Positions 13,976-21,333 of a DNA stretch of 23,292 nucleotides are shown one piece after another. This DNA comes from a virus. The notes under the pieces are model-generated. The model was given only the letters and a program-made list of their open reading frames with translations, made no database searches and was not told the origin of the DNA. A program made the translations under genes and the position numbers. The stretch covers positions 1 to 23,292 of IMG/VR virus record IMGVR_UViG_3300009167_000033; one strand, 5' to 3'. Each line of letters opens with the position of its first letter. Within the stretch, counting starts at the first letter, position 1.

Positions 13976-14023
13976 TTGAGTTGGGCCAAGCGCCCGTGTT
14001 CTTTCACAACCTAGGAGATGAAA

Positions 14024-14491
14024 ATGGCGAAAGCCAAAGTCGAGCGTAAGACGATGTCTTACGAGTTCAACGGCGACGTGTTGTCAATCGAGACAAGCGC
14101 CGGGATCGTTCACTCATTCGACTTCGGGGACGTTCCCGAAGAGTTGGATGCCGAGTTCATGGCGCTTGGTCGCAAGACCAAGATGGCCAACTTCGCAGTG
14201 AACGCGAAGAGTGAGGCGGAACGGATCGAGATGATCCAGACCGGCTTCGAACGGCTCAAGGACGGCGAATGGGAGAAGGAACGGGAAGGTGGCGGACCTA
14301 CCGTTTCGGCCGAAGTCGAGGCACTTGCCAAGATCAAGGGCAAGCCGGTGGCAGCGATTCAGAAGGCGCTGCAAGCCTACGACAAGGCGACTCGCGCGGC
14401 CATCCTCGCGAACGCGAAGGTGGTCGAAGAGGCCGCGAAGATCAAGGCGGCTCGAGAGTCGGTCACGGTTGACCTCGGAGACATGGTGTAA
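14024..14491 (+). CDS. Early protein A, paralog of the gene at 14905-15396 (155 aa)
   Basis: Function unknown. The N-terminal 40 residues are beta-rich (TMSYEFNGDVLSIETSAGIV); residues 60-155 are highly charged and helical. Residues 81-155 align without gaps to residues 89-163 of the minus-strand protein at 14905-15396, with 39 of 75 identical by my count, including GxWEKER, VSAEVEALA and an IxAARE block. I recall similar 'G-W---R-GGG....EALA--KG-----I' proteins in other phages, always uncharacterised. The tail VTVDLGDMV is acidic-hydrophobic. ATG 14024 is chosen because AGGAG ends six bases upstream; the ATG at 14018 directly abuts the AGGAG. It is the first gene rightward of the divergent region, so probably early. 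Confidence 0.8.
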   Translation: MAKAKVERKTMSYEFNGDVLSIETSAGIVHSFDFGDVPEELDAEFMALGRKTKMANFAVNAKSEAERIEMIQTGFERLKDGEWEKEREGGGPTVSAEVEALAKIKGKPVAAIQKALQAYDKATRAAILANAKVVEEAAKIKAARESVTVDLGDMV

Positions 14492-14904: not shown

Positions 14905-15396
14905 TCAGGCGAGGTCGTCCAGGCTGACGTCGCTGTTCTCGCGCGCCGCACGAATCTCCTTCGCCTTCGCCACGATCGCCGTGTTGCTGAGGATCTTGTC
15001 GCGCTGTTCCTTCGTGTACTTGCGAAGGGCAGCCTGTGCCTGCGCGACCGTGATCTTCTTCAACGTGGCGAGCGCTTCCACCTCTGCGGAAACGACAGGC
15101 GCTCCGGCCTTACGCTCCTTCTCCCACTGTCCGCCACGCAGCATGGCATATACTTCGCGCATGGCATCGAGCTTCTCAGGGCCGCTGTCCGTGTCGCTGC
15201 TGCGGTCCTGAAGCAGCTTCGACAAACCATACAGCGCGACGTTGGTCTTGATGCTGTCGGCAATGTCGCGGGCCTGGAATGTCTCCGACTCGACCACATC
15301 CCCCGACTCTCGCTCGATAACCTGAACGTTGACCGTAGCGTCGTCGGCCTTGAGTTCGACGCTGAGGCGGTATGCAGACTTTTCAGTGATAGGCAT
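14905..15396 (-). CDS. Early protein B, divergent paralog of early protein A (163 aa)
   Basis: The only minus-strand gene to the right of the divergent control region, with its own promoter and terminator. The N-terminal 50 residues are beta-rich (AYRLSVELKADDATVNVQVI); the rest is charged and helical. The last 75 residues are 52% identical to early protein A, so the two arose by duplication, and the copies now face each other. The C-terminus, DVSLDDLA, is an acidic-hydrophobic tail like those on single-stranded DNA-binding proteins, though no OB-fold hallmark is obvious. GGAG seven bases before the ATG supports the start. Possible roles are DNA-binding accessory protein or recombination mediator; these are guesses. 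Confidence 0.82.
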   Translation of the reverse strand: MPITEKSAYRLSVELKADDATVNVQVIERESGDVVESETFQARDIADSIKTNVALYGLSKLLQDRSSDTDSGPEKLDAMREVYAMLRGGQWEKERKAGAPVVSAEVEALATLKKITVAQAQAALRKYTKEQRDKILSNTAIVAKAKEIRAARENSDVSLDDLA

Positions 15397-15452
15397 GATG
15401 ATACTCCGATTGATTGGTGAAACCGTCCCCCGAAACTGCGGGGAACAAGCGT

Positions 15453-15481
15453 ATTTTAGGCTAGGCCGCGCACGAAGTCAA
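15453..15481 (-). promoter_or_regulatory. Sigma70 promoter of the minus-strand paralog
   Basis: Reading on the minus strand, TTGACT (-35, 5/6) and TAAAAT (-10, 5/6) are separated by 17 bases. The start would be near 15446, leaving a 50-base leader that contains a small CCCCG/CGGGG hairpin (15428-15443). Confidence 0.75.
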
Positions 15482-15511
15482 GACCGACGAGAGATTCTAC
15501 ATAAGTTATAC

Positions 15512-15718
15512 AAAAGCCCTCAAAAGCCCTCATAGTAGCTTATTTGACCCCCCCTGCCCCTCTCCCGCTTCCGAAGGTTTCTATTATAATTTTTTTTTTA
15601 AAACCCCACAGAAGCAGGCAGGGGGCTAGGGTGTTCAAAAGCCGACCATGAGGGCTTATAAGGGCTTATGTACGGCTTATTAGAACAGCGCAGGCTTATA
15701 GGGCTTTCCACGGCTTAC
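15512..15718. repeat. Iteron-like GGCTTAT array in nested inverted repeats (candidate origin)
   Basis: Rightward copies of [AGC]GGCTT[AT][TC] begin at 15652, 15662, 15673, 15692, 15701 and 15711, with steps of 10, 11, 19, 9 and 10 bases, close to helical phasing. Opposite-strand copies (AAAAGCC) lie at 15512, 15522 and 15637. Inverted repeats share one centre near 15590: AAGCCCTCAT (15524-15533) with ATGAGGGCTT (15648-15657), CCCCCTGCC (15550-15558) with GGCAGGGGG (15617-15625), and GCTTC (15567-15571) with GAAGC (15611-15615). The centre is AT-rich with TATAAT and a T10-type run (15581-15603). Phased iterons beside an AT-rich element are what replication origins and cooperative operator arrays look like. 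No gene lies between 15397 and 15775. Confidence 0.65.
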
Positions 15719-15747
15719 TTGATCTATGGCAGCGTTGCTGCTACCAT
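15719..15747 (+). promoter_or_regulatory. Putative promoter abutting the last iteron
   Basis: TTGATC and TACCAT are separated by 17 bases; the start would be near 15754, 22 bases before the ATG at 15776. The spacer holds an inverted repeat GCAGC-GTT-GCTGC (15729-15741), and the final iteron (15711-15718) touches the -35 box, so an iteron-binding protein could control it. Confidence 0.4.
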
Positions 15748-15775
15748 ATGCAGCTTCACTTCACAGGAGTCTCCC

Positions 15776-16549
15776 ATGCCCGGTGCCAAATTCCCCGAAG
15801 GCTATCCCCGAATGTATCATCAAATAGCAGAGAAGTTGTTGATGAATCGTCCAGCCTTCTTAGAGGTGAAGCCAACCATAAATCTAACTCACGCACGGGC
15901 CACATTCAACAACTTCCGTGCATCCTGGCTGCGCAAGTATGAATACTTCGCAAAGAACAAAGACCCCCAGGCGAACGAAGCATATGATACGCACGTTCGT
16001 CTAATGAGCTACACTGTCACGATTCAAAATAATGCCCTGCTATTCACATCAAAAGAAATCGAACAAGACTTAGAAATGAATGAGTTTGGCTCGGCCCCTG
16101 AGTTCTTCACCCACCGGCCGCCCATTACCCCACAGGCAGAACAGCACAAGGGAAAGAAGGGAGGATCATGGATTCTTCCACCACTCCTAGACGAAATAAA
16201 CAAAGAAGGACTGCAAGAAGCAAACGAAAAGATTCGAGAGATCTTCCCGAAGCAACCAAGAGAGCAGATTATCTCAGATAATCCGCCCTTGAAATTCTCT
16301 TCCAAAGAGGAAGAAGTCTTCTTCATGGCGAACGGCGTGCTGCCTAAGGACGAGAAAGAACTAAAAGCTGGGTATCCCCTAACACCCAAGCCTGTTAAGG
16401 TCGAGGCTCCACCCTTAGATGATCTTCTCCCCAAAGAACAACCCAAAGAGCAGCCCAAGGCTGATCTATCTCAATGGGCCCCACGCATCTCAAAGCAGGG
16501 CATCCCTCTTGCCCCACCTCCAGAATATAAAGAGCTATTAAAGAAGTAG
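15776..16549 (+). CDS. Unrecognised 257-aa protein next to the iterons
   Basis: I do not recognise the family. The N-terminal 100 residues are compact and basic (LTHARATFNNFRASWLRKYE, 'YFAKNKDPQ') and look like a folded, possibly nucleic-acid-binding domain. Residues 105-257 are Pro/Lys/Glu-rich and probably flexible, with PPLDDLLPK (212-220), repeated EQPK and ADLSQWAP (229-236). The ATG at 15776 is set by AGGAG six bases upstream; the frame is open further upstream through the iterons but without a site. Its position immediately beside an origin-like array, with a promoter touching the iterons, makes a replication initiator or regulator a reasonable hypothesis, but no motif proves it. Confidence 0.75.
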   Translation: MPGAKFPEGYPRMYHQIAEKLLMNRPAFLEVKPTINLTHARATFNNFRASWLRKYEYFAKNKDPQANEAYDTHVRLMSYTVTIQNNALLFTSKEIEQDLEMNEFGSAPEFFTHRPPITPQAEQHKGKKGGSWILPPLLDEINKEGLQEANEKIREIFPKQPREQIISDNPPLKFSSKEEEVFFMANGVLPKDEKELKAGYPLTPKPVKVEAPPLDDLLPKEQPKEQPKADLSQWAPRISKQGIPLAPPPEYKELLKK

Positions 16550-16648: not shown

Positions 16649-16816
16649 ATGTACCTCGCCAAGCTTCAAGACATTCGTCGCCTTGAGACGATCAAGGCCG
16701 AATTCATGCCACTCCGTTCCATCCCCAAGAACCAGCTCACACCCGAGCAACACAAGCGGCTCGTTGAACTCTCCGACGAAACCCTGAAAATCATTGGGAG
16801 GCTCGAGCAATCATGA
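16649..16816 (+). CDS. Small helical early protein (55 aa)
   Basis: It reads MYLAKLQDIRRLETIKAEFM and continues through IPKNQLTPEQHKRLVELSDE to IIGRLEQS. The whole chain should be helical, with the 'LTPEQ-KRL' turn typical of two-helix hairpins. No known family. ATG 16649 has AGGAG eight bases upstream; a longer frame from 16574 would begin inside the -35 box of the promoter and is rejected. Its TGA overlaps the next ATG by four bases, so it opens the translationally coupled early operon. Confidence 0.65.
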   Translation: MYLAKLQDIRRLETIKAEFMPLRSIPKNQLTPEQHKRLVELSDETLKIIGRLEQS

Positions 16817-17412
16817 GCAAGAAACCATCCATTGACCTATCCGAATTCCTCCCCAAAAAGGGTCAGGATCTCTCCGAGTTCCTGCCACCTTCGGTACAGC
16901 AACCGTCCGAAGTCCTCTCTCCTCCCGAACTCGTCGTCCTTCACTGGATCAAGTCGACCTGCTCCTGCGGCCGCGAGTACTCCTCACAAGAATACGGGCC
17001 GCTCATCCGCCACACCATATCCCGTCGCATCGGCTTCGGCCTTCGAGAAATGGGCAAGGTATTCATACCAATGCTTCCTGGGCTGGACATATCCGACTTG
17101 CCCCAAGAAGTCCGCACAAAGCACGAGCGCATCTACGCTTGTCCCTCCTGCCTCGGCACTCGGCCATCCTTGCCTCTCTTCCCTGAGGACAAACCCGCCA
17201 TCATAGTGAACACAAACGGCACCGCAATGTTCCCTCACGCCGCCGCCTGGTTCGAAGCGCACAAGACGAGCCGCCAGTTCGAAATTGATGAAACGCTCAA
17301 GGATATGCACAAGCGCGCCGTCGACTTTGACGACCTGCTCGCCTTCAAAACCACCAAGATGGATCTGCAGAGTGTTGCACAATCTCTGTGCGATCCCGAG
17401 TCACAAACATGA
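16813..17412 (+). CDS. Zinc-ribbon-like protein with DLSEFLP repeats (199 aa)
   Basis: Not recognised as a known family. The N-terminus carries the heptad DLSEFLP twice (residues 8-14 and 19-25) in a disordered, Pro/Ser-rich leader. The folded part has four cysteines as CSC (50/52) and CPSC (110/113), suggesting a zinc site, in LVVLHWIKSTCSCGREYSSQ and the segment around YACPSCLG. A later FDDLLAF segment (about residue 172) resembles the leader motif. The short repeats look like binding motifs for a partner protein. ATGA overlaps link it to both neighbours. Confidence 0.7.
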   Translation: MSKKPSIDLSEFLPKKGQDLSEFLPPSVQQPSEVLSPPELVVLHWIKSTCSCGREYSSQEYGPLIRHTISRRIGFGLREMGKVFIPMLPGLDISDLPQEVRTKHERIYACPSCLGTRPSLPLFPEDKPAIIVNTNGTAMFPHAAAWFEAHKTSRQFEIDETLKDMHKRAVDFDDLLAFKTTKMDLQSVAQSLCDPESQT

Positions 17413-18318: not shown

Positions 18319-18491
18319 ACATCACACAAGAAGAGCGTGAATCCCTGAGGGATGACGCACAGAACATTCGTCTCGCCCTTGAGGACTATGAGGCATATGG
18401 AAAGCTAACTCGCCTTACCATCGCCGTCCTATCCCTCATCGCAGACGACCTCGACCGCATCGCCAATCTGGAGAAGAGCAATGAATCTTGA
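18315..18491 (+). CDS. Small helical protein upstream of the helicase (58 aa)
   Basis: It reads MNITQEERESLRDDAQNIRL, then ALEDYEAYGKLTRLTIAVLS and ADDLDRIANLEKSNES. Two amphipathic helices, mostly acidic. The start lies in an ATGA overlap with the preceding stop and the end overlaps the helicase start by 11 bases, so translation is coupled on both sides. It could be a helicase accessory factor, on location alone. Confidence 0.65.
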   Translation: MNITQEERESLRDDAQNIRLALEDYEAYGKLTRLTIAVLSLIADDLDRIANLEKSNES

Positions 18492-19938
18492 CGAATTCAC
18501 AGTTGAAGCACCCACATCGCGCACCTGGTCTCCCTACCAACTCGCCATCTTCGATGAGGTCGCATCAGAAGGCAACCTCATCATTGAAGCCGTGGCCGGT
18601 TCGGGGAAAACATCGACCATATTAGAGTGCATGAATCGTGCCGAAGGCTCTGCCCTCTTTCTCGCATTCAACAAAGCCATCGCAGATGACCTTCGATCCA
18701 AGGTAAGGGGCGCAGAGGTCCGAACGCTCAATGCCTTGGGCCACTCCATCGTGACGAAGCGCCTTCCCGGTGTCAAGCTCGAATCTTGGAAAACGGCCAA
18801 TCTCGTCCGCTCGAAGCTCAACACGGAAGACTACGCAGAGTTTGGCAGCCAAGTCAATCGGATGATAAGCTTGGCAAAGGGCTGTGCCTTCGGCGTTCTC
18901 AACGACGCATCGCGTAAGCACTTCGTCCAGCTCGCCGACGACTTCGAACTCGACATTCCAAGCGACAAAATCGGAAAGGCTACGCAAGCCGCAAGCGTAG
19001 CCTTTTCCGAACTCATCTCCAACTTCGACTCCTTCGACTTTGATGACCAACTCTTCCTGCCCATCTATCATGACTGGACCTTTCCATCATTCGACACCGT
19101 CTTCGTCGACGAAGCACAAGACCTGAACGCCATCCAGCACCTCATGCTGGATCGGCTCCGCAACCGCGGTGCCCGGATCATCGCAGTGGGTGATACTCGC
19201 CAAGCGATCTACGGCTTCCGCGGTGCGCTCGTCTCGTCAATGGCTCTGCTTCGCGACAGCTTCGCCATGAAGCAGCTGCCTCTCTCGATCACGTATCGCT
19301 GCGACAGGGCCATCGTTGATCTGGCACAGACCATCGTTCCACACATCCAGGCGAGAGCAGGAGCAGGACAGGGAACTGTGCAGTACGTCGACCAACTCAA
19401 CATCTTAAATATCCCGGATGATACTTTGGTCGTCTGCCGCAACAATGCGCCGATCTTCGCACTTGCAATGCGCGCCCTCGCAGAACGCCGCCCCGTCCGT
19501 GTCATGTCCAACTTCACAGAGCAGCTCAAGGGCTTTGTCAAGTCATTCAAGACTCGAGACATGAAGATCCTGGAAGAGCGCCTCTTGAAGTGGTATGAGG
19601 CCGAGCGCAAGACGGCAGAGGAGAGTGGATTCTTCGGCCGCCTCGCCTTCCTCACAGACAAGTGCGACACCGTTCTCTCCCTCATCAAAGAATCATCCTC
19701 TCTTGATGACATACTAAATGCTCTCGAACGGTTCGGCAACTCGCGTATCGGCCCGATCCTTTCCACCATCCACAAGGCCAAAGGTCTCGAGGCCGAAACC
19801 ACCATCATCCTGAACAGGGAAAAGCTTCCCTCTCGCTTTGCCATAAGCGAAGCATCCCTCATCCAGGAGGATAATCTCTTGTACGTCGCCATCACCCGTG
19901 CCAAGCACACCCTCACCATTCACAGGGGAGAAACATGA
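18481..19938 (+). CDS. UvrD/Rep-family superfamily 1 DNA helicase
   Basis: A 485-aa 3'-to-5' type DNA helicase by family. All SF1 motifs are present: Q motif SPYQLAIFDEV, Walker A AVAGSGKTST (37-46), Ia LFLAFNKAIADDL, II FVDEAQDLN (208-216), III VGDTRQAIYGFRGA (236-249), IV SITYRCD, V STIHKAKGLEAE (428-439) and VI VAITRAKHTLTI. It is shorter than cellular UvrD (about 720 aa) because the 1B and 2B subdomains are reduced, as in compact phage helicases. It probably unwinds DNA for replication or recombination with the nuclease and ATPase encoded 1.4-2.8 kb downstream. The N-terminus NLDEFTVEAP resembles the acidic motifs of neighbouring proteins. GGAG in 'CTGGAGAAGAGCA' is the ribosome site. Confidence 0.93.
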   Translation: MNLDEFTVEAPTSRTWSPYQLAIFDEVASEGNLIIEAVAGSGKTSTILECMNRAEGSALFLAFNKAIADDLRSKVRGAEVRTLNALGHSIVTKRLPGVKLESWKTANLVRSKLNTEDYAEFGSQVNRMISLAKGCAFGVLNDASRKHFVQLADDFELDIPSDKIGKATQAASVAFSELISNFDSFDFDDQLFLPIYHDWTFPSFDTVFVDEAQDLNAIQHLMLDRLRNRGARIIAVGDTRQAIYGFRGALVSSMALLRDSFAMKQLPLSITYRCDRAIVDLAQTIVPHIQARAGAGQGTVQYVDQLNILNIPDDTLVVCRNNAPIFALAMRALAERRPVRVMSNFTEQLKGFVKSFKTRDMKILEERLLKWYEAERKTAEESGFFGRLAFLTDKCDTVLSLIKESSSLDDILNALERFGNSRIGPILSTIHKAKGLEAETTIILNREKLPSRFAISEASLIQEDNLLYVAITRAKHTLTIHRGET

Positions 19939-21150: not shown

Positions 21151-21333
21151 ATGCTAACAGCAGATCAGTTGAACGATCTTCGCAAACGTGCTCTTGCTAA
21201 TGAGCACGTTTCGCAAGAAGAATTCGCCGCAGCTGTCAAACAGCTAATCGCGGATCGCCTCTCGTCGTTCGAGAAGCCCACGAAAACTTCTTCGAAGAAG
21301 GCAACGCCCGTCAATCTTGATGACCTAATCTAA
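21151..21333 (+). CDS. Small protein with SSB-like acidic tail (60 aa)
   Basis: The N-terminal part is helical (LTADQLNDLRKRALANEHVS, then QEEFAAAVKQLIADRL), followed by a Ser/Thr/Lys-rich linker (KPTKTSSKKA) and the tail PVNLDDLI. Helix-linker-acidic tip is the layout of proteins that dock onto partners via the tail. Its tail closely matches DVSLDDLA of the protein at 14905-15396. Strong expression is expected because a near-consensus promoter lies 30-58 bases upstream and AGGAG seven bases before the ATG. I recall similar short proteins in other phages but no function. Confidence 0.75.
   Translation: MLTADQLNDLRKRALANEHVSQEEFAAAVKQLIADRLSSFEKPTKTSSKKATPVNLDDLI

Follow-up and report, generated by a model that had tools for sequence, protein, structure and literature searches.

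The locus and its sequence features

The window, by which we mean the whole stretch of DNA analysed here, is a virus record of 23.3 kb. Leftward in it are terminase, portal-like and capsid genes and rightward are genes for UvrD and PD-(D/E)XK proteins. The region of interest separates two divergent genes coding for proteins of 163 and 257 aa (Table 1). A reading made from the sequence alone (the sequence-only reading) had confined this region to positions 15512–15718, which are indeed gene-free; the actual gap between the flanking genes is somewhat wider and measures 379 bp. A near-identity search of the phage collection gave no match, an RNA family search of the region returned only miRNA matches at chance level, and a scan of the region for intrinsic terminators found none.

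Table 1. Positions of genes, repeats and putative control elements in the window.
Feature	Position	Strand	Remarks
163-aa gene	14905–15396	−	Conserved neighbour; members match phrog_28928 (function unknown)
Gene-free region, putative control/origin region	15397–15775	.	Between the divergent conserved 163-aa and 257-aa genes
Predicted leftward sigma70-like promoter	15453–15481	−	TTGACT-17-TAAAAT; G001 counterpart TTGACA-17-TAGAAT (L074)
Left array, outward GGCTTTT copies	15502–15528	−	Copies at 15522–15528 and 15512–15518
Degenerate in-phase copy of left array	15502–15509	−	TAACTTAT
Core inverted repeat	15548–15625	.	CCCCCTGCC (15550–15558) / GGCAGGGGG (15617–15625), T-run between
TATAAT followed by T10, candidate unwinding element	15584–15599	+	TATAAT 15584–15589, T10 15590–15599; counterpart in relatives
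Inward-facing AAAAGCC copy	15637–15643	−	Inner edge of right array
Right array, six outward GGCTT[AT][TC] copies	15653–15718	+	Starts 15653, 15663, 15674, 15693, 15702, 15712
Predicted rightward sigma70-like promoter	15719–15747	+	TTGATC-17-TACCAT; abuts last repeat; read from sequence
257-aa gene	15776–16549	+	First rightward gene, conserved neighbour; candidate iteron-binding protein; basic N-terminal domain 1–97

The repeats and inverted repeats described by the sequence-only reading are confirmed. All six rightward copies of GGCTT[AT][TC], reported as lying about one helical turn apart, were found in place, with steps of 10, 11, 19, 9 and 10 bp of which one is a double step. Three opposite AAAAGCC copies had also been reported and all are present (at 15512, 15522 and 15637), only the first two being part of the left arm. 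Since the copy at 15637 lies to the right of the core and faces inward, the left arm consists of two good copies and a degenerate one. The motif density is well above chance: counted on both strands of the gap GGCTT occurs nine times, as compared to a mean of 1.7 and a maximum of 8 in dinucleotide shuffles, none of 2000 of which reached nine, and no 380-bp window outside the region contains more than three.

The centre of the inverted repeats had been placed near 15590, and the best symmetry centre was computed at 15590.5, on the TATAAT-T10 element, with 52% mirrored as compared to a shuffle mean of 36% and a maximum of 43%. Besides the core inverted repeat, the region holds an inverted pair of 61 nt with 70% identity (15501–15561/15620–15680) and a further one, AAGCCCTCA/TGAGGGCTT. 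The enclosed TATAAT/oligo-T core is present as described, and its T10 is the only A/T run of at least 8 within the window. Single-strand folding of the core inverted repeat gave z values of −1.8 for the plus strand and −3.4 for the minus strand.

The predicted rightward promoter matches the consensus at 8 of 12 bases and was missed by the automatic scan. It is weak by consensus, and its assignment is based on its position and on the promoter found at the same position in the closest relative, G001 (TTGACC-17-TATCAT, locus L074).

Conservation of the layout in related phages

The family was defined by TerL, and relatives were obtained via TerL searches; 71 loci were recovered with an alignment built from 22 TerL proteins. 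Searches of viral contigs with the 163-aa or the 257-aa protein alone gave one locus and none, respectively. The arms on either side of the A/T run were taken for 35 loci, and both arms were complete enough in 30. The set includes the cultured Microcystis phage Mel-JY34 and Vibrio phage VS-ABTNL-3, which are the nearest named phages by TerL identity (39% and 34%). Because the relatives are not independent of each other, the pooled statistics given below tell how consistent the layout is across the family and not how many times it arose.

The best A/T near-homopolymer upstream of TerL scored 8 or more in 28 of the 33 loci with more than 3 kb of upstream sequence, as compared to 1 of 31 control stretches downstream of TerL. 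In the 35 loci the homopolymer mostly lies 2–4 kb from the terminase gene, the AT-rich element adjoining the arrays (T10 in the window) is a run of 8–26 in relatives, and the T-run occupies the same strand in 31. Conservation in related phages had been set beforehand as a test of the earlier reading. The outcome was positive for the layout, which with its flanking arrays of outward repeats is kept in some 30 relatives; the repeat sequence itself has changed and is phage-specific.

In G001, the closest relative (48 kb; 82% identity in TerL), the orthologous region at 18519–18922 has the same layout: outward GGGCTTAT and GGGCTTTT units follow each other at 10–11-bp steps, and there is a T-run as well as two sigma70-like promoters that face outward and have spacers of 17 bp. 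The intergenic DNA of the window and of G001 no longer aligns in blastn. Repeat units elsewhere are CAGGGGAACTA/CAGGGGAACAT in L141, TTAGGG in G009/L128, GTAGAT in L115 and CTAGA in L087. Two contigs from metagenome bins (MAGs) that were found later, L140 and L141, show the same layout by eye. The former is from an Ignavibacteria MAG and the latter from a Planctomycetota MAG bin; the presence of phage contigs in bacterial bins is a weak hint to the host or a binning error. Six contigs (L076, L095, L107, L121, L122 and L131) have one of their ends no more than about 120 bp away from the T-run. The homopolymer and inverted repeats probably break assemblies, and contig ends at the T-run should therefore not be read as genome ends.

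Mirror symmetry and helical phasing

The left arm read outward aligned to the right arm of the same phage with a score of 29.6, as compared to 10.8 for right arms of other phages; with the window excluded, the maximum reached in 10,000 permutations was 15.3. Arms compared in the opposite orientation scored 10.6, and the own-arm score was above that of the opposite orientation in 27 of 29 cases, again excluding the window. The number of 7-mers shared between arms followed the same order, with 18.6 for own arms, 5.5 for the opposite orientation and 3.5 across phages. The symmetry peaks at 40–110 bp from the core and is absent at 200–270 bp.

Approximate 6-mer repeats within the arms, when pooled, recurred at lags of 10 (z 16.5), 20 (z 8.6) and 31 (z 4.4), and control DNA located 300–450 bp out from the core gave no lag-10 peak. 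VS-ABTNL-3, of which the repeats are 8 bp, must contribute to a smaller peak at lag 8. Outward GGG tracts had a period of 10.5 bp (z 5.5) and inward CCC tracts in the arms had none. For individual phages, helical phasing was detected at p ≤ 0.05 in 18 of 30 and not in the other 12. A hairpin with the T-run as its loop was discarded as a family feature: it is clear in the window and in L113, and across the family hairpin potential of the core (23/30) was only slightly higher than in mismatched-arm controls (176/300).

Neighbouring genes and a candidate binding protein

Members of the 257-aa protein family were recognised next to the core in 20 of 28 loci (three weakly, two as the second gene), and the alignment of this family is too diverged to seed a scan. 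The protein has no Pfam, PHROG or PDB sequence match. Its N-terminal domain was modelled by AF2 with a mean pLDDT of 86.8 for residues 1–112 and a predicted order of helix-strand-helix-helix-strand-strand (H-E-H-H-E-E). The domain has a pI of 9.6, and it is basic in nine of the ten family members tested. Structure comparison produced weak matches mainly to winged-helix proteins, the best PDB hit having an E value of 0.24. A winged-helix assignment, which the order of the elements suggests, was not retained as none of these matches was significant. The 257-aa product is the candidate for a protein that would bind the repeats.

Two paralogous genes of one family, both with phrog_28928 matches, lie left of the core (14018–14491 on the plus strand and 14905–15396 on the minus strand). 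Most relatives carry one or two copies of this family near the core, in either orientation.

A putative replication origin combined with an early promoter

We consider it probable, at roughly 60%, that the region serves this phage family as its origin of replication and incorporates an early promoter. The comparative evidence, which comprises the layout, the phasing, the match of each left arm to its own right arm and the presence of a left array where the leftward promoter is gone, favours an iteron-type origin plus early promoter over a simple operator. The position of the T-run on one strand in 31 of 35 loci fits a strand-specific unwinding element; thymidines in such elements were found to matter for a plasmid initiator (PMC10797057). 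Also counted in favour of an origin were the phage's own replication proteins, since the right arm of G001 encodes PolA-type polymerase, DUF3987 primase/helicase, SSB-like, Sak4-like and UvrD proteins. On the other side stands cumulative GC skew, which has an inflection close to the core in several genomes but is inconsistent in its sign there. The origin architecture of phased iterons and an AT-rich element put forward by the sequence-only reading is supported by its conservation in the relatives, and the interpretation given by that reading is, as a whole, partly supported.

We infer that protein binding, strand opening and the start of replication occur at this region. In this model the short repeats on either side of the core would be occupied in a cooperative manner by a phage protein, most likely the one encoded by the first rightward gene, which would sit on one face of the DNA. 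Its two assemblies would then strain and open the T-run, at which the phage helicase/primase and polymerase could load. The outermost right-hand repeats, once bound, may also affect the promoter of the first rightward gene.

Among known systems, the origin of lambda has four iterons (six in some related phages) flanked by an AT-rich tract and located inside the O gene (PMC7466680). The region studied here is similar in that motifs resembling binding sites are repeated next to AT-rich DNA, with an early promoter and the gene of a possible binder nearby. It differs in having two mirrored arrays of units of about 10 bp, which surround an A/T homopolymer and lie outside any gene. An O homologue was not recognised and the neighbour genes gave no O-family match. 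Because the arrays are not inside an O gene, this is not a lambda-type origin as defined by iterons within an O-like initiator gene.

In the plasmid origins of RK2, F and R6K the helical spacing of iterons matters, the initiator is encoded by the replicon, and a T-rich unwinding element is bound by it in a strand-specific manner (PMC10797057). Helically spaced repeats, a T-rich element and a candidate initiator gene are shared by the region described here. Plasmid iterons are longer and usually located on one side. In the SV40 core origin, short mirrored repeats adjoin an A/T tract, and divergent promoters, one early and one late, lie next to it. The resemblance to SV40 is one of layout only, as it is a different kind of virus and no T-antigen-like protein was seen here. 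The region is most likely an origin and an early control region in one, with a mode of action like that of the lambda or plasmid iteron origins and a mirrored layout that sets it apart.

Whether this amounts to a new class of phage origin is a question on which we remain just short of an even balance. Such a class would be characterized by mirrored, phage-specific iterons of about ten bases placed one turn apart, a strand-biased A/T homopolymer and, encoded next to it, a new family of initiators that opens this homopolymer, and in the same joint reading it would be common to a large, mostly uncultivated phage clade. In the literature searched, the coverage of which excluded most subscription journals, we found no description of the mirrored layout. 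For most uncultivated phages neither the origin nor the initiator is known. The layout can be recognised without knowing the repeat sequence, so prediction of origins from contigs would become possible. Furthermore, as the repeat motif differs from phage to phage, and so presumably does the protein that matches it, the family would provide a natural experiment on the co-evolution of DNA recognition and replication start. The two cultured members, Mel-JY34 and VS-ABTNL-3, in which the equivalent region is located at about 44.2 kb and 40.7 kb, respectively, make the origin reading directly testable.

Alternative explanations

Helically phased sites beside a promoter also fit an activator or repressor array. 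The arrays could serve as an operator or enhancer only, binding a phage regulator of the divergent early promoters without a replication role, which we regard as unlikely though deserving of serious consideration. Such a function would agree with the sigma70-like promoters that bracket the arrays in the family loci, pointing outward more than inward (p 6e-6), and helical phasing suits cooperative regulators. The −35 box of the rightward promoter adjoins the outermost right repeat in the window and in L091, L099 and L100, and because of this contact a role of the arrays at the rightward promoter is likely. A central run of T8–T26 on a fixed strand is not required for an operator, however, and a layout that is kept with a changing motif would be less expected.

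If the arrays did nothing but regulate divergent genes, the left one should be lost in loci with no leftward gene starting beside it. The leftward promoter score was 12.1 in the eight loci where this gene points left from the core and 5.4 in the twelve where it points toward the core (p 2e-4), whereas arm symmetry in the same two groups was 29.6 and 27.4. Cross-phage values were about 10, and all 18 testable loci were above their respective cross-phage means. Since the symmetry is similar with or without a leftward promoter, the mirrored arrangement is not explained by two promoters. In an operator for divergent promoters each array would be tied to the promoter on its side, but in loci that lack the leftward promoter and gene the left array is retained with its symmetry undiminished. 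A cooperative operator for the flanking divergent genes, the main alternative of the sequence-only reading, is therefore disfavoured in its plain form; what stands is the likely role at the rightward promoter.

It is very improbable that the region is a centromere-like partition site, such as parC of ParMRC or tubC of TubZRC, in which arrays of repeats of about 11 bp are bound by a small DNA-binding protein. Repeats of about one turn in two blocks, possibly around a promoter, recall parC and tubC, and the product of the flanking gene has a basic domain. Against this, no motor protein (ParM, ParA or TubZ) was found among the right-arm genes scanned, which covered part of the ORFs of the window and G001, and no lysogeny or plasmid maintenance gene was recognised. 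Mirrored polarity and a T-run would not be expected in such a site; the repeats of parC are not known to be mirrored or to enclose a T-run.

Equally improbable is a packaging site, the region being a physical genome terminus or pac site near the terminase genes. The distance to TerL, mostly 2–4 kb, would suit this function, as would the contigs that end in or near the T-run (L076, L095, L107, L121 and L122), but these breaks fit assembly failure at a homopolymer with inverted repeats. Moreover, the core lies well inside relatives with overlapping contig ends that resemble circular assemblies (G001, G007, G008 and G010), and the ends of G011 and G012 join within the core itself.

A switch was also mentioned in the sequence-only reading; an invertible one, in which the inverted arms would let the core flip and change gene expression, is the least probable explanation: the arms are inverted repeats and the core-proximal G/C tracts face opposite ways in G001 and the window, but the T-run is on a constant strand in 31 of 35 loci, for which reason an inverted core in G001 was also dropped, arm identity is limited to short repeats, and no recombinase was recognised beside the core.

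Further observations on replication and early genes

The family A DNA polymerase of G001 is split in two ORFs (L043:11996–14932; 31996–34932 of the record), one part comprising UDG, exonuclease and the N part and the other the C part. It is interrupted by a 180-aa ORF that matches the Lon protease C-terminal domain (PF05362, E 1e-10). VS-ABTNL-3 has three ORFs at the polymerase site (24872–28006), the middle one of about 185 aa, and the polymerase of Mel-JY34 is encoded by a single uninterrupted gene of 810 aa. Adjoining the replication genes of G001 is a fusion of a ParB-N domain with a DNA methyltransferase (PF02195 + PF01555; L043:10080–11456).

A short acidic-leucine motif (SLDDLA, PLDDLLP, DLSEFLP, NLDEF, NLDDLI) occurs at the ends of several unrelated early proteins in the window and its relatives. 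In the window it is found at 14905–14925 (minus strand), 16437–16480, 16813–16880, 18481–18500 and 21310–21333, and it may serve as a peptide through which these proteins dock to a shared partner.
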